64,000 nucleotides of DNA, taken from assembly GCF_900110275.1 (NCBI RefSeq), contig NZ_FODC01000001.1:1341198-1405197 (forward strand), read 5' to 3'. The number at the start of each line of letters is the position of its first letter. Within the stretch, counting starts at the first letter, position 1. The stretch is from Duganella sp. CF517 (GTDB lineage Bacteria; Pseudomonadota; Gammaproteobacteria; Burkholderiales; Burkholderiaceae_D). The notes below the pieces were generated by a model, which saw nothing but the letters and a program-made list of their open reading frames with translations, was not told the origin of the DNA and searched no databases. The position numbers and the translations under genes are program-made. Of this stretch, positions 6,066 through 61,094 are shown piece after piece.

Positions 6066-6075
6066 CCCGCCTGCC

Positions 6076-7983
6076 CTACTTCCAATCCCCGCGCAAATCG
6101 AGCACCTGCTTCTGCAAGCCCTCCGGCGTGACATCATGCGGCGGCACCGGCAGCCCCACCGCCAGCGCCAGCCGCGAGCGCAGCCCGTTGCGGAACGCCC
6201 GCTGGAACACATTCTCGCCATTGCGGCTCAGCAGATGCCCCCACAACCCGCGCAGCGCCATCGGAATCACCGGCACCTTCGAGCGCTCGATGATCTTCGC
6301 GATACCACCCTTGAACTGGTTGATCTCGCCGTCGTGCGTCAAGCGCCCCTCCGGGAAGATACACACCAGATCCCCCTCGTGCAGCGCCTGCGCGATGTCG
6401 ATGTAGGCCTTCTCCATCAGCCACGGGTCTTCCTTGGCCGGCGCGATCGGAATCGCGCGCGCGGTGCGGAAGATCCACCCCAATAACGGCAGCTTGAAAA
6501 TGCGGTGATCCATGACGAAGCGGATCGGCCGCGGGCTGGCCGCGCCGATGACGATGGCGTCGACATAGCTGACGTGGTTGCACACCAATACCGCCGCCCC
6601 CTCGGCCGGAATGCGCTCGGCGTCGATGGTGCGTACGCGGTGCACGGTGTGGATCAGCATCCAGGCCAGGAAGCGCATCAGGAATTCCGGCACCAGCGAG
6701 AAGATGTAGATCGCCACCAGCGCGTTGAGCAGCGCCGTCACCAGGAACAGCTGCGGGATCGTGAAGCCCTGCCCCAGCAGCACGATGGCCAGGCCGGCCG
6801 CCGCCACCATGAACAGCGCGTTGAGGATGTTCATGCCGGCGATGGTGCGTGATATGTGTTGCGGGTCGCAGCGGGTCTGGATCAGCGCGAACAGCGGCAC
6901 GATGAACAGGCCGCCGAACAGGCCTATCATCAGGATGTCGAACAGGATGCGCCACATGCCATGCTGCGCCAGCAGCGCGATCGCGTCCAGGTGCGGGCCG
7001 GCCGCCAGCGCGGCCGCGCCGCCGCCGTAGGCCAGGCTGGCGAAGTACAGGTCCACGCCGAAGATCGTCAGGCCGATGGCGCCGAACGGCACCAGGCCGA
7101 TTTCCACCTTGCGCCCGGACAGGCGCTCGCACAGCAGCGAGCCGCTGCCCACGCCGAGCGAGAACACCGTCAGCAGCAGCACGAAGGCGCTATGGTCGCC
7201 GTGCAGGTAATCCTTGGCGAACACCGGGAACTGCGACAGCACCAGCGCGCCGTAGAACCAGAACCACGAGTTGCCCAGCATGGACAGGAACACGGTGCGG
7301 TTCTTGCGCGAGAAATTGATATTGCGGATCGATTCACCGACGAAGTTCCAGTTGATTCTCAAGTCCGGCGCCGGCGCCGGCGAGCTGGGAATGCGGTAGG
7401 CGGCAATCAGGCCGAGCACCGCGAAGAAGATCGTGCCGCCCGCCTCCAGCAGGATGCCGTGCGGCTGCTGCACCACCAGGATGGCGCCGAGGATCTCGCC
7501 CAGCAGGATGCCGACGAAGGTGCCCATCTCGGTCACGCCGTTGCCGCCGATGAGTTCCTCCGGCTTGAGCTGCTGCGGCAGATACGCATATTTGACGGGG
7601 CCGAACAAGGTCGAATGGACGCCCATGCCGACCACGCCCAGCACCAGCAGCCACAGGGTGTGCGTCATCCAGCCCACGCCCGCCACCAGCATGATGCCCA
7701 GCTCGAGCCACTTGATGAAGCGCGTCAGCCCGGCCTTGTCGAACTTGTCGGCGAGCTGGCCGGCGGTGGCGGAAAACACCACGAACGGCAGGATGAACAG
7801 CCCCGGGATCAGATTGGTGACCAGCGACGGCGACAGCGTGGTCCAACTGAGCGCATCGAAGGTGATGATGACGATCAGCGCCGTCTTGAACAGATTGTCG
7901 TTGAACGCGCCGAGGAACTGGGTCCAAAAGAACGGCGCGAAGCGGCGTTGCGTCAACAGGGAAAACTGATTGGGCTGGCTCAT
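6076..7983 (-). CDS. Lysophospholipid transporter-acyltransferase fusion (LplT-PlsC type)
   Basis: 635 residues. The first ~410 form an MFS transporter like LplT (MSQPNQFSLL start, about 12 hydrophobic segments, early FNDNLFKTAL motif). The last ~200 form a PlsC-type acyltransferase with NHVSYVD (the HxxxxD catalytic motif) and FPEGR. LplT flips lysophospholipids into the inner membrane and Aas re-acylates them; this fusion does both steps without the acyl-ACP synthetase domain of full-length Aas proteins. It therefore needs an acyl donor made elsewhere. It is a lone gene on the minus strand, convergent with the hydrolase. Function is a family-level assignment. Confidence 0.88.
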   Translation of the reverse strand: MSQPNQFSLLTQRRFAPFFWTQFLGAFNDNLFKTALIVIITFDALSWTTLSPSLVTNLIPGLFILPFVVFSATAGQLADKFDKAGLTRFIKWLELGIMLVAGVGWMTHTLWLLVLGVVGMGVHSTLFGPVKYAYLPQQLKPEELIGGNGVTEMGTFVGILLGEILGAILVVQQPHGILLEAGGTIFFAVLGLIAAYRIPSSPAPAPDLRINWNFVGESIRNINFSRKNRTVFLSMLGNSWFWFYGALVLSQFPVFAKDYLHGDHSAFVLLLTVFSLGVGSGSLLCERLSGRKVEIGLVPFGAIGLTIFGVDLYFASLAYGGGAAALAAGPHLDAIALLAQHGMWRILFDILMIGLFGGLFIVPLFALIQTRCDPQHISRTIAGMNILNALFMVAAAGLAIVLLGQGFTIPQLFLVTALLNALVAIYIFSLVPEFLMRFLAWMLIHTVHRVRTIDAERIPAEGAAVLVCNHVSYVDAIVIGAASPRPIRFVMDHRIFKLPLLGWIFRTARAIPIAPAKEDPWLMEKAYIDIAQALHEGDLVCIFPEGRLTHDGEINQFKGGIAKIIERSKVPVIPMALRGLWGHLLSRNGENVFQRAFRNGLRSRLALAVGLPVPPHDVTPEGLQKQVLDLRGDWK

Positions 7984-8115: not shown

Positions 8116-9687
8116 CTACGCCGCCTGCCGCGCCAGGTCTGGTTCGGCCGCCGGCGCGCGCAGCGACCAGACGCTGTGCGGATCGCCATGCAGCCCGCGC
8201 CGGAGCACCGCGCGCGCCATTTTCCAGTACAACGCTGCCGCCAGCAGCGCCACCACCGCCACGCCGACGGTGACGCCGTCGCCGCGCATCAGCGCCAGCA
8301 GCGGATTGAGGCCGGTGGCGATCCAGTGCGACAGCGGAATGGCCACGGTCAGCGCCGCGCACGCGGCCAGCAGCTCGCAGGCGGCGCGCGCCGGCGGCCG
8401 GGCGAAGGCCCACGCCACGGCCAGCCAGAACACCGCGTAATAGCCGCGCGACTCCCACAACGGCAGCTGCCCCGGCGCCGCCGGCGCCAGCTTGTTGATC
8501 ACGAACATGGCCGAGACGCCCGCCACGCAGCCGAGACACACGCCCAGGGTGGCTTGCGCCATCAGGCGTCCGCTGCGCGGCTGCACCAGGTTAAGCCGCT
8601 TGCGGCGCGACTCGATCCACAGCAGGTTCCCGCTGTAGAACAGGAACGCGCCGGCGAGACCGAGGATGAAATACACCCACTGCACCGCCGCGTGGCCGAA
8701 GTTACCGAAATGGAGCGCCTGCAAACTACGCAGGAAACGCGTGCCCGGACTGAAATTCTCCGGCACCACCACCCGCCGCACCTCGCCGGTGCTGGCGTTG
8801 AGCACCACCGCGGCGATATGCGCCACGGTCTTTTGGTGTATGTCCCCTATTGCCTGCATCTGGGCGTTGGCGTCGCCGGCCTCGCGGTAGAGCAGGCGCT
8901 TGACCTCCATGCCGGGCGCCGCGCGTTCGACGGCGGCCATCAATTGCGGAACCGGCAGCAGCGGCGCGGCCTGGCCGGCCGGCTGCGGCGGCGCGGCGGC
9001 GTTGATATCGGCTCCCACCAGATTGAGCAGCTTGCCGTCGAAAACGAGGTACTGGAAAGGCGCCAGCAGGATCAGGCCCAGCGTCAGGATCGCGCTGCTC
9101 CACGCATACATGATGTGGAACGGCAGCGACAGGATGCCGATGGCGTTGTGCGCGTCCTGCCACATGCGCTTGAGGTTCCTGCCTATCCGGAGCGCGAACA
9201 AGTCCCTGGCGAAGCTGGGCGCGTAAATAATCACGCCGCTCACCAGCGCCAGCCCGTATAGCACGCACACCACGCCGAGCGCGTACAAGCCGAACTGCTG
9301 CGGCAGCCCCGCCGTGTAGTGCAGCCGGTAGATGAAGTCCATCAGGTGCGAGCGCTCGTCGAATTCCTCGAGCTTGCCGGCGGCGTCGAAGCGGAAGTGG
9401 CGCTCGCCGGCGGTCAGCACCAGCTCCGGTTCATAGTCCGACGGCAGGCTAACATAAAACATCTTGCCCGCCTCCGGATGCGCGGCCAGCACCGCGTCGA
9501 TCAGCGCCTGCGGCCGCGGCGCGGCGGCCGCAGGCGCTGATGGCGCGACAGGCGTCTGCCATGCGTGCAGCTCCGAATGGAACAAGGTGATGGCGCCGGC
9601 GTAGAAGGCGATGAACAGGCCGAAGCCCGCCACCAGCCCCACCCAGGTGTGGACCGAAATGAAGGTGCGCAGGGTCGAGGATTTCAT
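8116..9687 (-). CDS. PepSY-associated membrane protein of an iron-uptake operon
   Basis: 523 residues from the ATG at 9687 (MKSSTLRTFISVHTWVGL), overlapping the previous gene by 4 bases. It has four or more transmembrane segments separated by large periplasmic PepSY-like regions, the layout of PepSY_TM proteins. An HTWVGL motif in the first helix and HNAIG, HIMYAW and HFG motifs in later helices supply intramembrane histidines, consistent with haem-binding ferric-reductase-like roles proposed for such proteins. It is the last gene of the TonB receptor operon (10254-12419 first). It probably helps release or reduce iron from the imported siderophore; this role is inferred from the operon. Confidence 0.86.
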   Translation of the reverse strand: MKSSTLRTFISVHTWVGLVAGFGLFIAFYAGAITLFHSELHAWQTPVAPSAPAAAAPRPQALIDAVLAAHPEAGKMFYVSLPSDYEPELVLTAGERHFRFDAAGKLEEFDERSHLMDFIYRLHYTAGLPQQFGLYALGVVCVLYGLALVSGVIIYAPSFARDLFALRIGRNLKRMWQDAHNAIGILSLPFHIMYAWSSAILTLGLILLAPFQYLVFDGKLLNLVGADINAAAPPQPAGQAAPLLPVPQLMAAVERAAPGMEVKRLLYREAGDANAQMQAIGDIHQKTVAHIAAVVLNASTGEVRRVVVPENFSPGTRFLRSLQALHFGNFGHAAVQWVYFILGLAGAFLFYSGNLLWIESRRKRLNLVQPRSGRLMAQATLGVCLGCVAGVSAMFVINKLAPAAPGQLPLWESRGYYAVFWLAVAWAFARPPARAACELLAACAALTVAIPLSHWIATGLNPLLALMRGDGVTVGVAVVALLAAALYWKMARAVLRRGLHGDPHSVWSLRAPAAEPDLARQAA

Positions 9688-9953
9688 CCGGCGATCCTCA
9701 ACAGGCCGCTGGCCTTGGACAAGTGCAGCACGGCGTAACCGAGCACGGTGGCGCCGCCCATCCACAACCAGGCGCGCAGGCCGGTGCGGAACAGGAAGGC
9801 GATCGTCATCGCGCCGATCCAGAACAGGAAGAACATCAGCAGCCATGGCAGCGTGGTGCGCGCCTGGTCGCGGCTCAGCAGCGCGCAGACGCCCACCACG
9901 ACCACCGCCAGCGGCAAGCCGAGAAACACGGCGGCCGTCGATTTACCCCACAT
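9684..9953 (-). CDS. Small membrane protein, probably DUF3649 family
   Basis: 89 residues from MWGKSTAAVF at 9953, with three hydrophobic helices. It overlaps the upstream small gene by 11 bases and the PepSY gene by 4 bases (ATGA). Small proteins of this size and place, between a TonB receptor and a PepSY protein, are usually DUF3649 or DUF3325 members annotated as iron uptake proteins. I assign DUF3649 by position and hydrophobic profile, not by a search. No catalytic residues are visible. Confidence 0.72.
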   Translation of the reverse strand: MWGKSTAAVFLGLPLAVVVVGVCALLSRDQARTTLPWLLMFFLFWIGAMTIAFLFRTGLRAWLWMGGATVLGYAVLHLSKASGLLRIAG

Positions 9954-10242
9954 GGCGCGCTCCCGGTTTGGCCGCGGGTGGCGTCCCGCGGCGACGCAGC
10001 CAGGCGTCGGCATAAGGCAGCACCACCAGCGTCGTCATGAACCCTGACAGCGCGATGCAAACGCCGCACCAGGGGCCGTAGTCCCGCGCCGCCGCCGCGA
10101 TGGCGCCGGTGGCCAGCGGCACCGACAGCCAGCGCAAAAAGTACCGGCGCGCCAGCGCGGCCGGCCATAACCCTTGGTGCGGCGAGGCCAAATACAAACA
10201 CAAGGCGGCCAATGCCGCCACCACGATGCTGATCCAGTTCAT
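9943..10242 (-). CDS. Small membrane protein, probably DUF3325 family
   Basis: 99 residues from ATG at 10242, 11 bases after the TonB receptor stop. The start MNWISIVVAALAALCLYLAS is a membrane helix, followed by an arginine-rich turn (ARRYFLRWL) and two further helices. This pattern matches DUF3325 proteins that follow siderophore receptors in many proteobacteria. It is cotranscribed with the receptor and presumably shares its Fur control. Its biochemical role is not known. Confidence 0.75.
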   Translation of the reverse strand: MNWISIVVAALAALCLYLASPHQGLWPAALARRYFLRWLSVPLATGAIAAAARDYGPWCGVCIALSGFMTTLVVLPYADAWLRRRGTPPAAKPGARHVG

Positions 10243-10253
10243 CGCCTGCTTCC

Positions 10254-12419
10254 TTAGATGCTGCCCTGCACGCCGAAGGCGAACTGGCGCGGGTTGCCGA
10301 GAATGACGTTGTAGCGGCCCGTCACGGTCGCGATGCGGTTGTTGACGACGTAGGTGCGGTCGGTCAGGTTGGTGCCGGTGGCGAACAGCGTAACGCCATT
10401 GGCCAGCGTGTAGGACAGCTTGGCGCCGAGCGTGGTGTGGCCGTCGTTGCGGTCGACGTTTTCGGGGCCGGTGTAGCTGCCGGCGGCGTGCACCAGGTTC
10501 GCGTTCACCATCCAGCCTCCGGGCGTCCAGCTGAAACCGACCGATTGCGTCCGCCGGGGCGAATCCGGGAAGCGGTTGCCCGTGTACGTCCCCTGCGGCG
10601 AGACGAAATCGATATAGCGTGTGTTTGCCACGCCCACCGCCCCGAACAGCTCGAGGTTCTTCATCACCCTGCCGCGCGCCTCGGCCTCCAGGCCCTGCAG
10701 GCGCGACTTGCCGGCGTTGACGAAATAAGTGTCGAGCGAATTGCGGCCGACATCGACCTGCTGGTCCGACCAGTCGACGCGGTAGGCGTTGAGGGCGACC
10801 ACCAGGCCGTTGTCGAGCGCTCCCTTGAGCGAGGCTTCGTAGTTGTTGGTGAACTCCGGATCGAAGGCCTTGGCGCCGCGCTGGTAGCTGTAATTGACGC
10901 CGCCGGTGCGGTAGCCGCGCTGCGCCGTCAATCCCGCCACCCACGCCGGCGCCAGCGCGTAGCGCACACCGAGCTTGGGCAGCCACACCGACGTGTCCGT
11001 GCCCAGGTGTTGGGTGCCGTCGGCGGCGAAGACGCCACCGGCGATCAGCCGCGCCAGGACGGTGCGCGCCAGCGCCGAGGTGCCGGTGGTGACGCTGGTC
11101 GGCACGCGGCTTTGGCTTTCGGCGTCGTAGCGCAGGCCGGCCGTCACGGTCAGCTTGCCGACCACATAGTCGAACTCCGTGAACACGGCGCGCGTGCGGA
11201 TGCCGTCGGCCTGTACGTTGCCGCGATTGATGAACTCCGCGCCGTATTGCGCATCGCACGCCGCCTGCACCCTGCACTGCCCCGTCAATCCCAGCACGTA
11301 AGACAGCGGCACCACGAACATGTCGTCGTAATCGTAATGCTGGTTGGCGTAGTACAGGCCGGCCACGCCCTTGAGCGGGCGGCCGAACAAGGTGGTGTCG
11401 AGATTGGCGCGCGCTTCCTGCGTCCACTGGCGCGTGATGTTCTCGCCGGTGCGGTAGCCCTGGTCCAGCTCCGTCGAATCGTAGTCGAACAGGCGCGAAT
11501 AGCGGTTGTGGGAATACGTCGTCAGCAGCGTGACATCGGCCCCGCCCGCGCGGAAGGTCTGTTCCAGCGCCGCCGAGCGGGCCCGGTTGTCCGAATCGCG
11601 CTGCACGTTCGACAGGTTCACGCGCGCCGACGCCGGATAACTGACCGCTTCCACATGCGGGCTGCCGAACTTGCGCTGCTCGTCCACCAGCGTGACCAAG
11701 GCTTGATAACGATCGCCCCATGGCGTCACGCGCAGCTTGGCGCGCAGCGTGTAGCCGTCGTCGTGGTTGAAGCGGCGGTCGTCGCGGGTCGGGTCGTAGG
11801 TGCCGCCATCGCTGCGGCGCTGCTCGAAGGCGATGCGGCCAGCGAGCACCTGATCGACGAGGGCGCCGCCGCCGGCCACCGCCACCCGGTGCGAGTTCTG
11901 GTTGCCGGCGCTGGCGCGGTAGCTGAAATCGGCGGCGTCGGACGGATCGCGCGTCTTGACCACCACCGCGCCGGCCAGCGAGTTGCGTCCCTGGTTCGTC
12001 GATTGCGGCCCGCGCAGCACCTCGAGGCGGTCGGCGTCCCACACGCTCATGCCGCCGACATCCTGGCCGAAGCCGTCCTGCGCGACGCCGTCGACCACCA
12101 CGGTGATGGTGCGCCCGCCGCCGCCGGTCGGCCCGCTCAGGCCCACGCCGCGTATCGACAGTCCCTCGGCGGTGCCGACGTTGGCCATCTGCGTGGCCAC
12201 GTCCTCGATGGTGGCGGCGCCCGATTCGGCGATCTGGCGCCGGTTGCGCGCGCCGACGCTGGCGCTGCTGTCGATTTCCGTGCGCCTGAGCTTATCGCCG
12301 GAGATCACCACCTGTTCGACCGGCGCCGCGCCGGATCCCGCCGCCGGAAGTTCCTCCGCTTGCACCTGCCAGCCCGCCACCACGCCGCTCAACGCCACCA
12401 CCATTACTTTGATACGCAT
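10254..12419 (-). CDS. TonB-dependent outer-membrane receptor, probably siderophore
   Basis: 721 residues from ATG at 12419. A signal peptide (MRIKVMVVALSGVVAGWQVQA) precedes a TonB-box-like EQVVISG near residue 33. A plug domain follows with TITVVVDG and RLEVLRGPQS, then a 22-strand-type barrel with NYEASLKG and repeated aromatic strands. Receptors of this type import ferric siderophores using TonB energy. A perfect Fur-like palindrome lies 21 bases before the start, and the downstream genes are iron-uptake accessory proteins. The last residues are FAFGVQGSI, ending in Ile rather than the usual aromatic residue. The ligand is unknown. Confidence 0.93.
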   Translation of the reverse strand: MRIKVMVVALSGVVAGWQVQAEELPAAGSGAAPVEQVVISGDKLRRTEIDSSASVGARNRRQIAESGAATIEDVATQMANVGTAEGLSIRGVGLSGPTGGGGRTITVVVDGVAQDGFGQDVGGMSVWDADRLEVLRGPQSTNQGRNSLAGAVVVKTRDPSDAADFSYRASAGNQNSHRVAVAGGGALVDQVLAGRIAFEQRRSDGGTYDPTRDDRRFNHDDGYTLRAKLRVTPWGDRYQALVTLVDEQRKFGSPHVEAVSYPASARVNLSNVQRDSDNRARSAALEQTFRAGGADVTLLTTYSHNRYSRLFDYDSTELDQGYRTGENITRQWTQEARANLDTTLFGRPLKGVAGLYYANQHYDYDDMFVVPLSYVLGLTGQCRVQAACDAQYGAEFINRGNVQADGIRTRAVFTEFDYVVGKLTVTAGLRYDAESQSRVPTSVTTGTSALARTVLARLIAGGVFAADGTQHLGTDTSVWLPKLGVRYALAPAWVAGLTAQRGYRTGGVNYSYQRGAKAFDPEFTNNYEASLKGALDNGLVVALNAYRVDWSDQQVDVGRNSLDTYFVNAGKSRLQGLEAEARGRVMKNLELFGAVGVANTRYIDFVSPQGTYTGNRFPDSPRRTQSVGFSWTPGGWMVNANLVHAAGSYTGPENVDRNDGHTTLGAKLSYTLANGVTLFATGTNLTDRTYVVNNRIATVTGRYNVILGNPRQFAFGVQGSI

Positions 12420-12439
12420 GCCACATCCTATCGTCGAAA

Positions 12440-12454
12440 TGAGAATTATTCTCA
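12440..12454 (-). promoter_or_regulatory. Fur box of the TonB receptor operon
   Basis: TGAGAATTATTCTCA is a perfect 7-1-7 inverted repeat close to the Fur consensus TGATAATNATTATCA. It lies 21 bases upstream of the receptor start, where Fur-Fe2+ binding would block transcription. It supports iron repression of 12419 to 8116. Confidence 0.85.
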
Positions 12455-12472
12455 CAAACACCCGATATTAAA

Positions 12473-12487
12473 TGAGAATCGTTTACA
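12473..12487 (-). promoter_or_regulatory. Second, weaker Fur-like half-site
   Basis: TGAGAATCGTTTACA repeats the left arm of the Fur box exactly (TGAGAAT) but the right arm is degenerate. It sits 18 bases upstream of the perfect site, a spacing compatible with cooperative Fur dimers. It lies between the receptor and the end of the methyltransferase gene. Confidence 0.5.
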
Positions 12488-12537
12488 TTCAAAGGTAATT
12501 GTGTTGATTTGGCATCGAAATTGCCTCGTGGCGTCGT

Positions 12538-13275
12538 TTACCGGACGGGCGGCGAAGGTTTAACGCCCACCAGATTGATCAGCGTCTCCTCGCGCACCGC
12601 CTTCGGCTTGATGCGCAGCGCCGTCTCGAGGATCCCCAGGTCCTCGCGGCTCCACCACAGGAACGGGTACGACACCGAACTATCCGGCACCACGAAACCG
12701 GCCGCGCGCACCATCGCCAGGTACTCGGGCGCGGTCTTCTGCACATCCATCGGATGGCGGAACAGCAGGCGGATGATCCACGAGTGGATATAGCGCTTGG
12801 TCGATTCGGCGAACAGCAGCACGCCGCCCGGCTTGAGCACGCGGAAGAACTCCTGGATCGCGCGCTCCTGGTCGATCAGGTGGTGAAAGGTCTGGTGGCA
12901 GAACAGCAGGTCGACCGAATTGTCTTCCAGTTTGATGTTGGAGCTGGAACAGCAAATGAAGTCTGCCGCGATATTCAGCGCCGCCATCTCCTTGGCCGAC
13001 TCCTGCAGCATCTCGGGATCGATGTCCATGCCGATCAAGCGCTTGGGCGCGAAGCGCTGGTGCAGCTTGCCCAGCGAGCGGCCAAAGCCGCAGCCGACGT
13101 CGGCCACCACGTCGTAGCCGCGCCGATCGGCCGGCATCATGCGCTCCAGGTCCACCAGCGCGCGCTCCAGCACATGGACGGTCCAAGTCTCGGTGCGCAG
13201 GAACCATTTGCCGAACGCCGTCTCCGGCACATGGGGATCGCTGGAAGGCTTCATTACATCGAAATTGGCGCTCAT
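12538..13275 (-). CDS. SAM-dependent methyltransferase (possible ApeB)
   Basis: 245 residues with a class I methyltransferase fold. Motif I is VVADVGCGFGRS, the acidic residue ending beta-2 is in IGMDIDPEM, and motif IV-like FCHQTFHHL precedes LKPGGVLLFAEST. It probably transfers a methyl group from S-adenosylmethionine to a small molecule. Aryl polyene clusters usually carry a methyltransferase (ApeB) that methylates the aryl head, and this gene lies at the downstream end of the cluster on the same strand. However, the plus-strand deacetylase separates it from the rest, so membership is an inference. No other substrate clue is visible. Confidence 0.75.
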   Translation of the reverse strand: MSANFDVMKPSSDPHVPETAFGKWFLRTETWTVHVLERALVDLERMMPADRRGYDVVADVGCGFGRSLGKLHQRFAPKRLIGMDIDPEMLQESAKEMAALNIAADFICCSSSNIKLEDNSVDLLFCHQTFHHLIDQERAIQEFFRVLKPGGVLLFAESTKRYIHSWIIRLLFRHPMDVQKTAPEYLAMVRAAGFVVPDSSVSYPFLWWSREDLGILETALRIKPKAVREETLINLVGVKPSPPVR

Positions 13276-13370
13276 AAGATCTTCATCTACATTGGTTTAA
13301 TAAAATTTCGGGTGCGCGGCGACAATGAAAATTCACGTACAATAGTCATCCCTCGTCGTCCGTTAAACCC

Positions 13371-14258
13371 GTGTTAGCCCTTCGTCCCCGCCTGCTGTTC
13401 GCAACGTTGTCATTGCTGCTATTGAGCGCCGCCGCCGCAGGGCAGGACACGTCCGCGGGGCCGCCCTTGTCCGCGCCGGCGCCGGCGCCCGTGCGATTTC
13501 TGCTGACCTTCGACGATGGCCCCGCCGCCGCCGACAGCGACAATCCCACCGTGCATATCCTCGAGACGCTGGCCCGCAATCCGCTGCAGGACAACATCAA
13601 GGCCGTGTTCTTCACCCAGACCCGCGCCTGGCACGGCGGCGGCACCGATGTCGGCCGCGCGCTGATCAAGCGTGAACACGACGAGGGCCATGTCGTCGCG
13701 CTGCATAGCGCCACGCTGTTCCACTCGAACCACCGCTTCATGAGCAAACAGACGCTCGACGAATCGATGCAAACAGGCGTCGACGACCTGACCGGCATCA
13801 CCGGCGTCGCGCCCAAGCTGGTGCGGCCGCCGTTCTGGGCCTACGACGCCGAGACGCTGGAGTCGTACCGCCAGCACGGCATGCGCATGCTGCTGACCGA
13901 CCTCAATGCCAACGACGGCAAAATCTACGGCATCAACTTCAGCTGGCACAAACGCTCGAACATGCTCAAGCACCTGGCGGAGACGCGCAAGCGCTGGGCG
14001 GCCGGCGCCATGCCGGTGGTCGACGGCAGCACGCCGGTCGTCGTCACCTTCCACGACGTGAACACCTACACCTCGCGCCACATCCAGGAATACCTCGACA
14101 TCCTGATCGACGTCGCGCGTGAACTCGACGTGCCGCTGGCGGCCAAACCGTTCTACGACGACCACGACGAACTGGAACGCGCCGCGCTGGCCAGCACGGT
14201 CAGCAACCCGAACGCCAAGCCGCAGCTGCCAGGGCTGTGGAACTGGCTGTGGCAGTGA
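13371..14258 (+). CDS. Secreted polysaccharide deacetylase (NodB fold)
   Basis: 295 residues with a GTG start at 13371. A signal peptide (hydrophobic LLFATLSLLLLSAAAAG) is followed by the NodB motif TFDDGP, giving the catalytic base Asp and metal-binding Asp. Motif 2 is HSATLFHSNH, and motif 3 RPPFWAYD follows. The fold removes N- or O-acetyl groups from sugars in the envelope or matrix. It ends immediately before the convergent phosphopantetheinyl transferase stop, with no gap. It is the only plus-strand gene inside the pigment region, and whether it modifies the pigment's attachment or an unrelated polysaccharide is not shown. Confidence 0.87.
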   Translation: MLALRPRLLFATLSLLLLSAAAAGQDTSAGPPLSAPAPAPVRFLLTFDDGPAAADSDNPTVHILETLARNPLQDNIKAVFFTQTRAWHGGGTDVGRALIKREHDEGHVVALHSATLFHSNHRFMSKQTLDESMQTGVDDLTGITGVAPKLVRPPFWAYDAETLESYRQHGMRMLLTDLNANDGKIYGINFSWHKRSNMLKHLAETRKRWAAGAMPVVDGSTPVVVTFHDVNTYTSRHIQEYLDILIDVARELDVPLAAKPFYDDHDELERAALASTVSNPNAKPQLPGLWNWLWQ

Positions 14259-55737: not shown

Positions 55738-58700
55738 TTAATCGAGCATTCCGCTTAGTTTCTTCAGCTTCTTTCGACGTCCGATATAGCCGGCGCCCAC
55801 CAGGCCGGCGGCCAGCGCCAGCAGCGCCAGCGTCCCCACCGTCTTCTGCGCCGGGCTGAGATCGGCCAGCGTCTGCATCTCAAACCCGCTTACCTTGGCG
55901 TCGGCCGGCTCGGTTTTCGCAAACGGTGCCGGCGCCGGGTCTGCCGGTTTGGCCTTGGCGCGGGGCGCCGGTACCGGTTGCAGCTCCTGCGACTTCGCTT
56001 GCAGCACTTGCAGGTCCGCCAGCGCGGCCTGCATCGCGGCGTCGCTGGCTTGTTGCTGCCCCGGCGCGGCCGCCACTGGCTGCGCCGACGGCGCCGAACC
56101 GCCGGCACGCCCGGCCGCCGCCGCCCCGCGCGCGATCGCCGGATTGGAACCGACGTTCGGCACGAACTGGCCGGTGAACTCCGGCGCGATCTTCAACGTC
56201 GCCTTGCTGCACGAATCCGCGCTGCACGACACGCCCGCATCCTTGATCGCCCGCGCGTTTTGCCGCGTGAGATCGTCGCGCACCGCGTCGCCCGGCTTCC
56301 AGTACCCACGCTCGATGGCGCTGAGCATGCGATCCGTCACCGCCTGGTAGGCGCGCAGGTTGCCGCTGGCGGCGAAGCGCTCGCGCACTTTCAGGCCATG
56401 GCGGTCGGCCACGTAGGTGTCGTACATGCGCTGCCACTTGCCGCTGTCGACCACCTCCGGCACCGTCACCTGCCAGGCCCACAAATAGTCGACCACGCGG
56501 TTGATGTAGCGCGCGCCGGAGTAGCCTTCCTTCAGCATGCTGTCGGCCCACTTGGGATTGAGGTAGCGCGACTGCATCTCCTGGCCCATGTACTGCTCCA
56601 GCGTCTTGTGGCCCGGTTTGCGCGGGTTGGACAAATCGCTCACCACCACCTCCGGCGTCTTGCCGTCGGTGCTGCGGATCGCCATCGCGGTGCCGCCCAG
56701 GTACTGGAAGAAGTCATCATTGTCCAATGTCGCAAACAGGTTGCTCGACCGGCTGTGCAGCGCGATCTTGCTGCCGCTGATGGCCCGCTTGAACAATTCG
56801 CGCCGTTGCGCGGGGTCGGCCTTGTCGTCGCCCCAGTAGCCGGCGCCGAAAGGATGGCTCATGCGGTTGATGAACACGTCCGCCACTTCCTTCTCGTTCT
56901 TCCAGGCGTTCGTCAGCGGGATCAGCTTTTCGATCTGGGTGCCGTAGGCGCCGCTCGGCACGCCGAAGATGCGCACCGACGCCATGCGCCGCGCCTCGTC
57001 GGCCGACATGCCGGTGGCCTGCAAGGCGGCGGCGGTCTTGCGGCTGTGCTCCTGCATCACGTTGCCCGACGGCCCGGCATCGGCCGCCGTGCCCAGATCG
57101 TCCTGTTGCTGCGCCAGTTGCGCCGCCTTGTCCATCAACGCCAGCAGATTGCCGAACAGGTCGCGGAACAGGCCCGACGAAATCAGCGTGACGTCGACAC
57201 GCGGACGTTCCAGCTCCTTGCGGGCCAGCGCTTCGACACCGGTTACGCGGCCGCGTTCATCCCAGGTCGGACGCACGCCCATCAGCGCCATCGCCTGCGC
57301 CTCCATGATGCCCTCGTGGCGCGAGGTCTCCACACCCCACAGGTTCATGCTCAATTTGTCCGGGTACACGCCATGGCGTTTGCGATAGTCGTCGACCAGT
57401 TGCCGCGCGAGTTTAGCGCCCGCCTCGTAAGTCGTCTTGCCGGGAATCCTCGAGGGATCGAGACCGAAGAAGTTGCGGCCCGTCGGCAGCGCGTCGGGAT
57501 TGCGTACCAGGTCCGCGCTGGCGCCGGCCGGAATGTAGCGGCCCGCCAGGGACTCCATCAAGCGGTCCAACTCCAGCGCCGCGCTGCGCTCGATATCGTC
57601 TTCCAGCCGCGCGACCCGTTTGGCCTTCTGCTCGGCGGTGGCGCCGGTGTCCAGGCTGACCACCGCGCGCGCGGTGGCGTTGCGCCGCTCCGCCGTCGGC
57701 GCCACGCCGAAGGTGTGCAGGCCGAAAGGCGTCAGCTTGTTGCCGGTATCGTCCAGGTACTCTTCCAGCGCCTCCATATCGGCTTCGGTTTTGAGCTCGG
57801 TCTTTTTCATGTCCTTCAACACGCCGCTTTTGGCGGCGACGCGGTTCAGCGCCAGCATGTGGCTGCGCGCCAGCAGCGGGCTTTTTTGCTCGGCCACGCG
57901 GTAGTCGTTGAGCAGCGCGCCAAGCTCGCGCAGGTCGGGATTGAGGCCGGCGATATCGAACGGTGGCGTCATGTGGTCGATGATGGTGGCCATGCCGCGC
58001 CGCTTGGCCTGTATGCCCTCGCCCACGTCGTCCATCACGTAGGGATAAATATTGGGCACGGCGCCGATCAGCGCCTCGGTCGGATCGTCCTCGGACAGGC
58101 CGGCCTCTTTACCGGTCAGCCATTCCTGCGTGCCGTGGGTGCCGATGTGCATCACGGCGTTGGCCTGGAAGCTCTTTTGCAGCCACAGATAGAAGGCGAT
58201 GTACTCGTGGCTGGGCGGCATGCTCACTTCGTTGTGCAGCTTCTCCAGGTTTTGCTCCCACGCGCGGCCGGGCTGCGGCGCCATCAACACGTTGCCGAAG
58301 CGGCGCGCCGGGTAGACGAAGAACGGCTGCCCCTTGGCGTCGCGCCACAGCACCGGTGCGTTTTCCGGCTTGCCCCAGGAGGCCAGGATGGATTCGCGCA
58401 GCGTTTGCGGAAGTTTGGCAAACCATGCCTGATAATCGCCCAGCGGCACCAGCAAGGCCTGGCCGCTTTCGGCCAGATGCTTCAGGCCCGTCATGTAGTC
58501 GCCCTTGGACTTGCCCGGGTAATTGCCCCATTGCTGGATCTCGCCTTGCAGCTCGGCCTCGCCGGCAGGCAGCGCGTCACCGGTCTGGTAGCCGTCGCGC
58601 TTGAGGCGCTGGACGATCTGCCACAAACTTTCCGGCAGCACGTTCAGATACGCCGCGCCGATGGTCTCCGAACCATGCGGGTAGTTAAAGTAGATCATCG

Positions 58701-59841
58701 CGATGCGCTTGTCGCCGTTGGCCTTCTGGCGCAGGGCCAGCCAGGCCGCCACGCGCTCGTTCAGGCGTTCGATGCGCTCCGCGATCGGCGTCTCCTCGAC
58801 GTAGGCCAGGCCGGTCTGCGCATCGCTGATGCGCTCGCGGCTGGCGACCACCGTCGGCTGTATCAGGCCCGCCATCTCGGCGCCGGCAAGCTGCCAGGTG
58901 CGTTCGATGATATCGAGGCCGATCTTCGAGTCGCGCCATTGCGCCGCCGTGTGCTGGCTCAGGGTGATGGCGTTGATCGCCGGGACGCCGATCTTGTCGA
59001 GTAGAGCGCCAGTGTTGGCGGTGCCGCCGACCTTCATGCCCAGCGCGACGATCAGGTCCACGCGGCTCTTGCCGTTCTCGTCGAGCAGGAAGCGCAACGG
59101 CACGTCGTACGGATAGCCGAACACCGGCAGCACGTTGTAGCCGCCCGCTTCGAGCCTGGCGACGATGGCCGCCAGCGGCAAAGTTTGCCCCGCCACCAGG
59201 CTGGCGCGATAGAACGGCACGGCGATCCACGGCGCGCCCGTCTTGTAATTGGCATAGCCCTGCAAATACTGCTCGTAGCTGCCGTAGGTGCGGTTGGCCG
59301 CGACGTCGTACAGGCCCACGTCCGGCATCGCATGCACCGGCGCCGCCACCAGCGTCGCGCCGAAATGCTGGCGCAGGATGTAGCGCAGCAGGTTGCCCAT
59401 GTTCTCGATCCCACCCTCGCTGTGATACTGCTGGATGGTCTTGTCGTCCTGGACGCCCATCTCGCGGATGCTGTCGTCGATGGCGCCGCCGACGGCGAAC
59501 ACCGGATGGCGCGACTTCCTCAGCGCCTGCAGTTCATCCTTCAGTCCCGCCATCGCCAGCCTGCCCTTGGCGTTGACGATCGCGACATCGGCGCTGGCGA
59601 GGGCGTTGCGGTCGGCCTGCGTCATGCCGTTGTTGGGGATGATGCGGATGACGACGTTGAGCGCCTTCAGCTCCGCCTGCAAACCGCGCACCGCCAGCAC
59701 CGCCGGCCGCGATTCGACGTCGCCGAGCATCAGCGCCAGCGTGCGCGGCGCCTGCGCCGAGTGCACATAGCCGACGATGAAGAAGGAAACCAGCAGCAGC
59801 AGGACGGCTTCCAGTGTTCCAAAGCGCTTATTCCGGAACAT
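55738..59841 (-). CDS. CobN-like chelatase subunit with a transmembrane segment at each end
   Basis: 1367 residues. The N-terminus MFRNKRFGTLEAVLLLLVSFFIVGYVHS is a basic-flanked signal anchor, and the C-terminus has a single helix (TLALLALAAGLVGAGYIG) followed by RRKKLKK. By the positive-inside rule the large body lies in the periplasm. The core carries CobN/magnesium-chelatase H-subunit blocks (LALMLGDVESRP, MHIGTHGTQEWLTGKEAGLSEDDP, GVYPDKLSMNLWGVETSRHEG). A proline/alanine/lysine linker precedes the last helix. Cytosolic CobN lacks such anchors; HmuS of Porphyromonas hmu loci is a membrane relative. Start overlaps the DUF2149 gene. It likely inserts or removes a metal in a corrinoid or porphyrin. 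Confidence 0.87.
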   Translation of the reverse strand: MFRNKRFGTLEAVLLLLVSFFIVGYVHSAQAPRTLALMLGDVESRPAVLAVRGLQAELKALNVVIRIIPNNGMTQADRNALASADVAIVNAKGRLAMAGLKDELQALRKSRHPVFAVGGAIDDSIREMGVQDDKTIQQYHSEGGIENMGNLLRYILRQHFGATLVAAPVHAMPDVGLYDVAANRTYGSYEQYLQGYANYKTGAPWIAVPFYRASLVAGQTLPLAAIVARLEAGGYNVLPVFGYPYDVPLRFLLDENGKSRVDLIVALGMKVGGTANTGALLDKIGVPAINAITLSQHTAAQWRDSKIGLDIIERTWQLAGAEMAGLIQPTVVASRERISDAQTGLAYVEETPIAERIERLNERVAAWLALRQKANGDKRIAMIYFNYPHGSETIGAAYLNVLPESLWQIVQRLKRDGYQTGDALPAGEAELQGEIQQWGNYPGKSKGDYMTGLKHLAESGQALLVPLGDYQAWFAKLPQTLRESILASWGKPENAPVLWRDAKGQPFFVYPARRFGNVLMAPQPGRAWEQNLEKLHNEVSMPPSHEYIAFYLWLQKSFQANAVMHIGTHGTQEWLTGKEAGLSEDDPTEALIGAVPNIYPYVMDDVGEGIQAKRRGMATIIDHMTPPFDIAGLNPDLRELGALLNDYRVAEQKSPLLARSHMLALNRVAAKSGVLKDMKKTELKTEADMEALEEYLDDTGNKLTPFGLHTFGVAPTAERRNATARAVVSLDTGATAEQKAKRVARLEDDIERSAALELDRLMESLAGRYIPAGASADLVRNPDALPTGRNFFGLDPSRIPGKTTYEAGAKLARQLVDDYRKRHGVYPDKLSMNLWGVETSRHEGIMEAQAMALMGVRPTWDERGRVTGVEALARKELERPRVDVTLISSGLFRDLFGNLLALMDKAAQLAQQQDDLGTAADAGPSGNVMQEHSRKTAAALQATGMSADEARRMASVRIFGVPSGAYGTQIEKLIPLTNAWKNEKEVADVFINRMSHPFGAGYWGDDKADPAQRRELFKRAISGSKIALHSRSSNLFATLDNDDFFQYLGGTAMAIRSTDGKTPEVVVSDLSNPRKPGHKTLEQYMGQEMQSRYLNPKWADSMLKEGYSGARYINRVVDYLWAWQVTVPEVVDSGKWQRMYDTYVADRHGLKVRERFAASGNLRAYQAVTDRMLSAIERGYWKPGDAVRDDLTRQNARAIKDAGVSCSADSCSKATLKIAPEFTGQFVPNVGSNPAIARGAAAAGRAGGSAPSAQPVAAAPGQQQASDAAMQAALADLQVLQAKSQELQPVPAPRAKAKPADPAPAPFAKTEPADAKVSGFEMQTLADLSPAQKTVGTLALLALAAGLVGAGYIGRRKKLKKLSGMLD

Positions 59842-60169
59842 ATACGACCTTCCCGTCCGGCAGTTGGTAGGCGGTGCCGAGTCGCTTGCCCGAGCCGGAC
59901 AATGGCTTGTCGCTGACGCGGCTCACGGTGATCTCGGCGCCCTTCTTGGTCAGCACTTCGACGCGTCCGTCCGCGCTTTTCTTGGCGATGGTGACTTCCG
60001 AATTCGGATCGAGCAGGTCCATCATGTTCCAGGCGGAGAACAGCGCCAGCATCATGGCGACGATGAAGACGATGCTGGCGTCGAACAGGTTGGCGACGCC
60101 GGCCAGCGGGTCCTCGGTGTGCTCGCCGATGCGGCTGTAGCGGTGGCGGTTCATGAAGCGCATCGCCAT
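59828..60169 (-). CDS. DUF2149 single-helix protein, ExbD-like topology
   Basis: 113 residues. One membrane helix near residues 26-48 begins LFDASIVFIVAMM, with an Asp at its start like the proton-coupling Asp of ExbD/TolR (LIDVLLVLL-type). The C-terminal periplasmic part is small and beta-rich (GAEITVSRVSDKPL). DUF2149 proteins are found beside CobN-like and TolQ/ExbB-like genes. It lies 1 base after the TolQ-like stop and overlaps the CobN-like start by 14 bases. Confidence 0.85.
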   Translation of the reverse strand: MAMRFMNRHRYSRIGEHTEDPLAGVANLFDASIVFIVAMMLALFSAWNMMDLLDPNSEVTIAKKSADGRVEVLTKKGAEITVSRVSDKPLSGSGKRLGTAYQLPDGKVVYVPE

Positions 60170-60170
60170 A

Positions 60171-60767
60171 TCACGCCTCCGCGCGCATCAGGTGCGGCTT
60201 GCTGGCGTTCGCCGCCAGCATGCTCTCGGCGGCGTAGGCGATGTCGGTCAGGTCGTTGCGCAGCCAGTGCTCGCGCACCAGGCTCAGAACATACGCGCAC
60301 ACGCTGCACGCAAGGCCGACCACGGTGGCGGTGAAGGCGGTGGTCATCGATTCGGCCATCTTCGGCAGATTGCCCTGCGCCAGGCCGGCCAGCGAGATAC
60401 CCATCGGTATCAGGGTGCCCATCAGACCGAGCGCCGGGCCGACCCGCACCACGAAACGCACGCCGTCCAAGCGGCGCACGCCGGCGGCGTCGGCGCGCTG
60501 CACCACGCGTTCGAGGCGCGCGTCGAGTCCCGGTTCGCCTTCCTGCGCGGTCAGCACGGCCGCCATGTCGTGACGCGCGGTCGCCACCAGCATGCGCACG
60601 CCGCGGCGGCGCTCGATCCATTCGGCGCCGAAGGTGCCGAAGCACACCAGCATATATAAGGTCAGCGCGGCGATCCCCAGCAACACGGGCAGATACAGCA
60701 CGTTGGAAATGGAATACAGCAGCGTCTCGATCGAGCGGATGGCCGCGTCGGCAGGCAGGTTAGGCAT
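60171..60767 (-). CDS. MotA/TolQ/ExbB-family proton channel
   Basis: 198 residues from ATG at 60767. A TTG at 60791 preceded by GGAGG with an 8-base spacer is the better-placed start by ribosome site and would add 8 residues. Three helices are seen: one near the N-terminus and two after the cytosolic loop, with GPALGLMGTLIPMG and AFTATVVGLACSV, the Thr-bearing proton-path motifs of ExbB/TolQ. With the DUF2149 protein it should form an ExbB-ExbD-like pump using proton motive force to drive the CobN-like protein. Its leader is the cobalamin riboswitch. Confidence 0.87.
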   Translation of the reverse strand: MPNLPADAAIRSIETLLYSISNVLYLPVLLGIAALTLYMLVCFGTFGAEWIERRRGVRMLVATARHDMAAVLTAQEGEPGLDARLERVVQRADAAGVRRLDGVRFVVRVGPALGLMGTLIPMGISLAGLAQGNLPKMAESMTTAFTATVVGLACSVCAYVLSLVREHWLRNDLTDIAYAAESMLAANASKPHLMRAEA

Positions 60768-60792
60768 TGAATGATCCAGCGACAGAAGCAAG

Positions 60793-60814
60793 CCACTCAC
60801 CTCCCCGTGAGCGG
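60793..60814 (-). promoter_or_regulatory. Ribosome-site hairpin after the riboswitch
   Basis: On the minus strand CTCAC and GTGAG (with flanking CC/GG) enclose GGGGAGG, so the ribosome-binding site of the channel gene sits in a hairpin loop. A second perfect hairpin (GGAAGCGC-CGAT-GCGCTTCC, 60822-60841) lies between it and the B12 box. This is consistent with translational control, as in many cobalamin riboswitches. Confidence 0.55.
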
Positions 60815-60847
60815 ATTGAAAGGAAGCGCATCGGCGCTTCCACCTTT

Positions 60848-61036
60848 TTGGCCGGTATCCGGGCTCGCAAGCAAATCCGCCTGACCTTCCCATGCGACAG
60901 CACAGTGGCACAGCGAGGCGGATAGTCGTCGGGGACGACGCTTGTTTACCGTTGCGGGGGCAGCACATGTTGGCTGGCTGGGCCAGCGCCATGTTTCCCG
61001 TTTAACTGCGCATCCAGACGGACGCGCGGGCACCAA
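60848..61036 (-). promoter_or_regulatory. Cobalamin riboswitch of the CobN-like operon
   Basis: Read on the minus strand the leader has, in order: GGTGCCCG near the start, AAACGGGAAACATG, GCTGCCCCCGCAACGGTAA, GCCACTGTGCT, GGGAAGGTCAGGCGG and the B12 box AGCCCGGATACCGGCC (60851-60866). This is the full conserved order of the cobalamin aptamer. It precedes the TolQ-like, DUF2149 and CobN-like genes (60767 to 55738), so B12 should repress this operon. The 5' boundary is approximate. Confidence 0.95.
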
Positions 61037-61094
61037 AACCTGGCGATTATACGTGGTTCCAGCCCGTCCCGACAGATGCGGCGGGTGCTCCGAG

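Follow-up and report, generated by a model that had tools for sequence, protein, structure and literature searches.

A minus-strand operon in a 64-kb stretch of the genome of Duganella sp. CF517 (the window, that is, the whole stretch analyzed) comprises, in this order, a complete cobalamin riboswitch, a hairpin with a GGGGAG loop, an ExbB-like gene, a DUF2149 gene, and a CobN-like gene. The explanation that we tentatively place first is that this operon may provide a class-I chelatase that acts in the periplasm on scavenged corrinoids and is driven by proton flow instead of by an AAA+ ATPase. According to this model, low adenosylcobalamin would switch on, through the riboswitch, a machine of three proteins at the inner membrane. 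The C-terminal helix of the CobN-like protein would tether it on the periplasmic side. There it would receive a tetrapyrrole imported across the outer membrane by a TonB-dependent receptor, and the best candidate for this ring is a corrinoid that the cell has scavenged. The ring would be bound in the class-I chelatase cavity, where metal would be inserted, exchanged, or removed, and would then pass on to inner-membrane import and salvage. The ExbB-like and DUF2149 proteins would act as a stator that harnesses proton flow for conformational work on the latter, the role played by the ATP-driven ChlI/D or CobS/T motor in cytosolic chelatases. An original prediction, made from the letters of the DNA, had already proposed a periplasmic and proton-driven protein, an idea that is reasonable.

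Organization of the Operon and Its Leader

The features considered, all on the minus strand of the window, were the following:

60833-61051, minus strand: cobalamin riboswitch aptamer (RF00174, 78.8 bits, full model)
60793-60814, minus strand: GGGGAG-loop hairpin after the aptamer (found in 17 of 20 leaders)
60171-60767, minus strand: ExbB/TolQ/MotA-like channel protein, 198 amino acids from the ATG at 60767 (PF01618, 39.2 bits, cut-off 22.9)
60414-60416, minus strand: Thr118 of the ExbB-like protein (conserved in 58 of 58 rows)
59828-60169, minus strand: DUF2149 (HmuV-type, ExbD-like) single-helix protein, 113 amino acids (PF09919, 103.8 bits, cut-off 27.1)
60080-60082, minus strand: Asp30 in the DUF2149 helix, aligned with the Asp of ExbD
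55738-59841, minus strand: CobN-like (BtuS/HmuS-type) class-I chelatase homologue, 1367 amino acids (PF02514, 972.7 bits)
59764-59817, minus strand: N-terminal hydrophobic segment, residues 9-26, anchor or signal peptide (mean hydropathy 2.28)
58132-58149, minus strand: HIGTHG motif, residues 565-570, with His569 equivalent to HmuS His538 (alignment with HmuS)
56704-56724, minus strand: DNDDFFQ motif, residues 1040-1046, at the position of HmuS LSLDHxxE (His1209) and CobN-like here
56209-56226, minus strand: C-x4-C pair, residues 1206 and 1211, the sole two cysteines of the CobN-like protein
55789-55842, minus strand: C-terminal transmembrane segment, residues 1334-1351, followed by basic RRKKLKK (hydropathy 1.86)

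The match to RF00174 (61051-60833) covered all 189 model positions and clearly exceeded the gathering score (31.5; E = 9.8e-18), which places this complete aptamer among the cobalamin riboswitches. One base separates the stop codon of the ExbB-like gene from the ATG of the DUF2149 gene, and the ATG of the CobN-like gene lies inside the end of the latter, indicating tight coupling; the complete aptamer leading three coupled genes that had been predicted was thus confirmed. The ExbB-like protein most likely starts at the ATG at 60767, rather than with the long mechanical open reading frame beginning within the riboswitch. A TTG start right after the hairpin was discarded, being out of frame in the nearest relative (L087).

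The closest relatives of the CobN-like protein were found at 22 loci (62-94% identity) in Duganella, Rugamonas, Massilia, Noviherbaspirillum, and other Burkholderiales. Leaving aside L097, which was not searchable for riboswitches, and L100, which was cut off, 18 of the 20 loci that could be judged presented a riboswitch at most 300 bases upstream of exbB. As for the other two, a TonB-dependent receptor gene sits between riboswitch and exbB in L099, and the riboswitch of L105 is some 11 kb away from exbB on its upstream side, just beyond the stretch that was fetched. L099 further holds, at 6068-6271 and immediately ahead of its riboswitch, a small fragment that matches residues 271-338 of the CobN-like protein with 78% identity and points to an earlier duplication or rearrangement.

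The post-aptamer hairpin was present in the leaders of the window and 16 of 19 relatives, and was not found by the same scan in the leaders of L099, L102, and L107. Its loop read GGGGAR in every case (17/17; nine distinct rows), 94.4% of the cells were paired, and two stem pairs showed changes on both sides. We regard it as a likely L13 kissing-loop hairpin of the cobalamin-riboswitch expression platform.

Among 27 DUF2149 loci other than that of the window, a riboswitch above the cut-off occurred upstream, on the strand of the module and within about 11 kb, in 11; that of a twelfth (L076) fell below the cut-off. The riboswitch-linked modules were distributed in three separate clades of the tree described below. 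Two tandem cobalamin riboswitches were detected at 7479-7945 of L079, upstream of the receptor-CobN cluster of Trichlorobacter lovleyi; the word "riboswitch" is absent from the main text of the 2012 paper on the plasmid that carries it (PMC3403914).

A C-Terminal Anchor Accompanies an ExbB Neighbor

Hydrophobic segments were located at both ends of the CobN-like protein (residues 9-26 and 1334-1351), where the original prediction had put an anchor each; the C-terminal one is the only firm anchor, and the N-terminal one looks in the relatives like a cleavable signal peptide, as read by eye from their sequences with no predictor. The body of the protein would be periplasmic whichever N-terminal reading holds. 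The cysteine content is consistent with that compartment: the window protein has two, forming a C-x4-C pair common to window-type proteins, and module proteins have from 0 to 7, as compared to 5-15 in full-length bacterial CobN/BchH rows. The predicted tethering of a periplasmic CobN-like protein is thus supported by sequence signs, namely the segments and the low number of cysteines.

In order to relate anchor and motor, 92 CobN homologues, one per locus, were compared. Fifty-six had an ExbB neighbor (54 distinct, two having been fetched twice) and 36 had none; the latter comprised the 29 best PF02514 matches of the phylum, taken with flanks of just 1.5 kb, excluding those of the host and leaning, as best-scoring controls, towards true CobN, plus six from plasmids and the truncated L100. 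With a threshold of at least 1.46 for the mean hydropathy of 18 residues, a C-terminal segment was present in 55 of the 56 ExbB-neighbored homologues, the exception (L060) being a split gene whose second piece has the segment, and in none of the 36 others, whose highest value was 1.31. Conversely, a ChlI/D-type ATPase adjoined 12 of the 36 motor-less homologues and none of the 56.

Of 145 genomes of the family, 10 matched PF09919 over its cut-off, as did 17 of 398 of the phylum; both counts include the window genome. A CobN homologue and ExbB adjoined DUF2149 in 26 of the 27 non-window places (L052-L078), the remaining one, L059, having ExbB only. Likewise, ExbB and a CobN homologue were present in each of the eight plasmid records that matched DUF2149, although the DUF2149 gene of L084 is unannotated. 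BLAST alone missed DUF2149 in L061 and L074, both of which were found with the Pfam profile.

Features of a Proton Motor in the ExbB/DUF2149 Pair

The ExbB/ExbD-like character attributed to the two small proteins was borne out by Pfam scores over the cut-offs for PF01618 and PF09919. The Asp30 column of DUF2149 contained D in 57 of 58 module rows and E in one, and Thr118 of the ExbB-like protein was invariant (58/58). The pair therefore joins an ExbB-family channel to an ExbD-like partner with an Asp in its helix, the features of a proton motor. No ExbD Pfam match was reported for the window DUF2149 protein, and the comparison of the DUF2149 and ExbD profiles gave a local, weak match around the helix (probability 73%). 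The structure model of the DUF2149 protein was poor (mean pLDDT 55.3).

Receptors, Corrinoid Genes, and the Host Genome

The most likely substrate would be a corrinoid, a view supported by the riboswitch link in three clades, by import and salvage genes as neighbors, and by the rarity of cbiC among carriers. Thus, the L105 cluster that ends in the module contains a partial BtuB-like receptor, a FecCD permease, an ABC ATPase, cobO, cbiA, cobD, an aminotransferase, and cobQ. In the riboswitch-linked cluster of L062 (genome G397), a BtuF-CbiZ fusion and a CbiK chelatase lie beside the CobN-like gene, and periplasmic corrinoid remodeling is possible there. An earlier guess, made for Chlorobaculum, where chelatase genes adjoin a receptor gene, was that cobalt is inserted into imported cobalamin (PMC8620254).

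The absence of a linked receptor, which had been proposed to set the operon apart from known contexts, turned out to be local to the window. In 14 of 21 relatives (L100 not counted), cobN is followed at once by a receptor gene, and the receptors encoded are 45-49% identical to that at C10 in the host, which is a candidate stand-in. Six loci, the nearest relative L087 among them, had no downstream receptor, and the seventh was L099, with its receptor before exbB. This L099 receptor had as its sole NCBIfam match a weak one to a siderophore-receptor model, and shared 73% identity with the receptor adjoining the L061 CobN-like module, which belongs to another clade. Receptors of the C10 type were rejected as a marker of the module: they also occurred in 16 of 21 searched genomes outside the window clade, only G144 and G094 having DUF2149 over the cut-off.

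The window genome (7.06 Mb) contains six cobalamin riboswitches, including that of the operon. One, at C15, leads cbtA, a true CobN, and a ChlI/D-type ATPase; another, at C16, leads a BtuB-like receptor (best NCBIfam match TonB-B12, below cut-off), a FecCD permease, an ABC ATPase, and cob genes; three more lead TonB-dependent receptors at C10, C15, and C17. These four receptors behind cobalamin riboswitches further weaken the receptor-less distinction. The claim that CobS/CobT partners are lacking stood insofar as CobT was not found in the window genome and neither partner in the locus; it failed in that the genome has a ChlI/D-type AAA+ ATPase beside a second, true CobN, of which the window protein is a different paralogue. 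The presence of cbiD and cbiC indicates that the host makes corrin.

It is very improbable that the window protein serves B12 synthesis as another cobaltochelatase of the cytosol. PF02514 membership and the cobalamin riboswitch would agree with such a role, but the membrane segments, the two cysteines, the motifs, and the C-terminal hydropathy of 1.86 in a protein that should have no anchor do not; no CobS/T or ChlI/D ATPase was found among the neighbors of the locus, and the host has its separate true CobN with ATPase. Moreover, the scores lay below every reported NCBIfam CobN cut-off (816.7 vs. 1248, 603.1 vs. 822.05, and others lower).

As regards the surroundings of the operon, cueR and copA lie upstream and a TauE-family gene, on the opposite strand, downstream; none looks like a member of it. 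Elsewhere in the window, a Burkholderia RNA Bcj11 Rfam match was found at 7204-7325 on the minus strand (68.5 bits, cut-off 49).

Alternative Explanations and Evidence Against the Proposal

Several observations weigh against a proton-driven corrinoid chelatase, and concern its motor, its substrate, and its chemistry. ExbB/ExbD-type motors are known to serve outer-membrane transport, envelope work, and flagella. With respect to the motor, it is conceivable, though rather unlikely, that the ExbB/DUF2149 pair energizes an outer-membrane receptor and the CobN-like protein works without it. Receptor energizing is the task given in print to the homologous HmuU/HmuV (PMC10100974, PMC12583661), and the receptor gene after cobN in 14 of 21 relatives is in line with it. 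HmuS strips iron in vitro with NADH as a recombinant protein, and HmuU/HmuV do not figure as needed in that account (PMC12583661), although an effect of HmuT/U/V on HmuS activity is considered not excludable elsewhere (PMC13227078). Besides, a contig with ExbB and DUF2149 (L059, genome G134) showed no detectable CobN homologue; its pair lies at 8781-9601 and adjoins an uncalled gap of 3 kb.

Anchored homologues can also occur with no motor beside them, as two Cupriavidus plasmids indicate. Their CobN-like genes, directly before a true CobN and its ChlI/D-type ATPase, are:

L145:22784-26923: CobN-like gene of a Cupriavidus plasmid
L146:14365-18453: CobN-like gene of a Cupriavidus plasmid

The anchor was shown for the one from Cupriavidus campinensis (locus L144; hydropathy 2.38), a second CobN homologue of its locus and outside the 92 compared, among which the true CobN of L144 was counted. 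No DUF2149 or ExbB was found in the 49 kb around it with profiles built from module rows, nor in 33 kb around the same two-gene arrangement of Cupriavidus sp. EM10, and neither stretch contained a riboswitch.

Against receptor energizing stand the lack of tonB in the module and the presence of ordinary components of that kind where the module occurs. The T. lovleyi cluster (L079) contains an ordinary exbB-exbD-tonB set together with DUF2149 and its ExbB; in L062, an ordinary ExbD, identified by Pfam, adjoins an ExbB-like gene, recognized by sequence, within the module cluster; and seven ordinary ExbD matches were obtained in the window genome. Since ordinary ExbD stands beside the module in two operons, the ExbB/DUF2149 pair is probably not a TonB energizer. 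The usual partner of DUF2149 is moreover a CobN homologue (26/27 loci), and a control search found DUF2149 in Methanosarcina acetivorans, an archaeon, which has no outer membrane. A chelatase putatively driven by protons is the simplest reading.

With respect to the substrate, related modules appear in haem, zinc, and nickel contexts, which speaks against corrinoids throughout the family. The L052 module has a haem-type receptor, over the TIGR01786 and TIGR01785 cut-offs. In Azospirillum brasilense (L085, NZ_CP012918), an ABC importer comes after the module, as do nikR and a TonB receptor 39% identical to the riboswitch-led C15 receptor of the host. A plasmid of Runella slithyformis (L080, NC_015693) has its module within a hypABFCDE cluster, together with a "urease accessory" protein and a TonB receptor, a hydrogenase-maturation context that suggests nickel acquisition. 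The zinc context comes from the literature on Zur. A Zur-box palindrome, sought in 35 loci, gave one site in each of L070 and L071 (with 2 and 3 mismatches), some 240 bases before the receptor gene and with none expected, whilst the other loci showed nothing convincing; these sites are too weak to be used.

These contexts lend some weight to metal piracy, in which cobalt would be stripped from cobalt chelates or tetrapyrroles in the periplasm, as HmuS does with haem iron, and the ion would enter via another transporter. Besides hmu haem iron, nikR, and hyp genes, the Zur operon PA1921-PA1925, with raised cobalt in the znuA mutant (PMC4542158), points in this direction, as does the true CobN with CbtA in the host; since the host makes corrin, cobalt supply may apply to it. 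No cobalt transporter adjoins the module in the window, however, and the survey of cbiC speaks against a need for the metal. The gene was present in 8 of 44 genomes, that is, in 8 of 22 window-type, 0 of 10 other B12-type (including G431, with a riboswitch below cut-off), and 0 of 12 carriers of other module types; the survey covers module carriers only, with no base rate, and completeness is unknown for the 21 genomes reached via loci and 67% for G397. In 14 of 22 window-type carriers and all 10 of the other B12 types, cobalt would thus have no obvious purpose in making B12 de novo; cobalt supply for this purpose became less likely as a general role, and metal piracy appears improbable. The rarity of cbiC favors corrinoid salvage over cobalt supply, but the survey argues against the latter more than for corrinoids, as the absence of cbiC was not special to B12-linked carriers (0/12 in other module types).

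With respect to the chemistry, a CobN-like gene of genome G336 (L069, ~9919-13869) has motor and anchor kept and HxGTHG replaced by WVSLFSNIV, being possibly a non-catalytic member. It would suit a scaffold in which the chelatase fold just holds corrinoids in the periplasm while the motor powers the step in which they are released or passed to importers of the inner membrane, and B12 uptake and salvage genes as neighbors would suit it equally. Such a scaffold is nevertheless a doubtful explanation for the window protein: the HxGTHG histidine, which is superfamily-wide, and the active-site residues were invariant in the alignment of 23 window-clade rows (A1), and L069 is a long-branch exception, the single riboswitch of its genome being on another contig. 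The argument from cysteines is likewise tempered by two haloarchaeal CobN rows with just four and by the module rows that reach seven.

A broader idea, which we hold plausible but far from secure, extends the proton-driven corrinoid chelatase to a motor swap: in the ATP-free periplasm, the AAA+ motor would have been replaced by a proton-driven ExbB/DUF2149 stator acting on an anchored chelatase, giving a general machine for metal insertion or extraction that would serve haem, zinc, and nickel, and corrinoids in the window. No published proposal of a proton-driven chelatase was found in a literature search that excluded preprints and most subscription papers. If this holds true, ExbB/ExbD-type motors would drive an enzyme too, class-I chelatases would come in two forms, one powered by ATP and the other by protons, DUF2149 would gain a role, and CobN annotations in bacteria without a corrin-ring pathway would often be misnomers. 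The Duganella-type operon, compact and riboswitch-bearing, would offer a clean test system.

Comparison with Known Class-I Chelatases

By sequence, the window protein is a CobN homologue of the BtuS/HmuS kind, and by its defining residues neither CobN nor HmuS. This kind is known from Bacteroidota, Geobacter lovleyi, and Pseudomonas, has been characterized only for haem, and otherwise stands unexplained; no characterization of the window clade appeared in the literature seen. The window protein showed 46% identity to the T. lovleyi protein, approximately 25-30% to HmuS, and 30-33% to CobN of the host itself. In a quick tree of 50 rows, it grouped with T. lovleyi, Runella, and L062 (SH-aLRT 98), apart from the two other riboswitch-linked clades, the haem-receptor clade, HmuS, and CobN/BchH; the deepest forks were unsupported.

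The nearest solved structures were CobN (9uk9/7c6o), HmuS (9d26), and ChlH (4zhj). A model of the body (residues 28-1215; mean pLDDT 67.9, pTM 0.58) retrieved with Foldseek CobN 7c6o (3.9e-53), HmuS 9d26 (1.0e-50), and, close behind, ChlH, with global TM-scores of 0.33-0.38; superposition was good only in the C-terminal third (9fpc, TM 0.89 by target). Given such close ranks and low global scores, the model does not decide among the three.

HmuS (PDB 9d26), with HmuU/HmuV in the hmu operon of Bacteroidota, shares with the window protein the class-I chelatase family and a hydrophobic segment at each end, the N-terminal one of the window protein being perhaps a signal peptide. Both systems have ExbB-like and DUF2149 partner genes and the HxGTHG histidine, and a receptor-fed periplasmic tetrapyrrole step would be common to them; HFG(T/A)HG of HmuS, with His538, corresponds to HIGTHG at 565-570 and differs in the second position. 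In contrast, the haem ligands Met79/His254 are replaced by Lys92/Met269, LSLDHxxEFMGG (His1209) by ATLDNDDFFQYLGG, and the Met-rich insertion region (residues 697-909, some 200 residues between aligned parts) by four residues. Membership in HmuS was rejected, as three of the five features examined differ. The window operon, furthermore, has no hmuY or hmuT beside it and has a cobalamin riboswitch.

A third CobN type, BtuS, is credited to Rodionov 2003, and BtuS1/BtuS2 of B. fragilis have been predicted to be periplasmic and membrane-attached (PMC6460266). The window protein shows the signs of such a homologue, but its clade is betaproteobacterial and has different receptor genes. In B. fragilis, the cobalamin riboswitch of hmu-like operons had already been noted (PMC10100974), and T. 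lovleyi was described in 2012 as having B12 genes next to a cobN-exbB-exbD-tonB cluster, whose biochemical role was given as unknown (PMC3403914). What is new here is the association between C-terminal anchor and ExbB neighbor, the conservation of the DUF2149 Asp, the ordinary ExbD beside the module, the local nature of the receptor absence, and the cbiC survey.

The cluster of Geobacter (Trichlorobacter) lovleyi pSZ77/pGLOV01 resembles the window operon in its exbB-DUF2149-cobN order, in its CobN-like protein, and in the riboswitches upstream, there in tandem. It differs in the receptor and DUF2162 genes that precede and in the ordinary exbB-exbD-tonB genes and second receptor that follow. 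The Pseudomonas aeruginosa operon PA1921-PA1925, compared by description and not by sequence, likewise joins receptor, cobN-like, and ExbD-like genes, but is zinc-regulated, as a Zur operon (PMC4542158, PMC8531726); a znuA mutant shows raised cellular cobalt (PMC4542158).

CobN and ChlH, which work with CobST and ChlID, are cytosolic and ATP-driven. They belong to the same family of catalytic subunits, and NDDFFQ of the window protein resembles SDDYYQ of CobN. They differ in lacking the C-terminal segment and in carrying GKHG, the motif of 32 of the 36 motor-less homologues, where the window protein has GTHG, also present in two haloarchaeal CobN rows and in L100.

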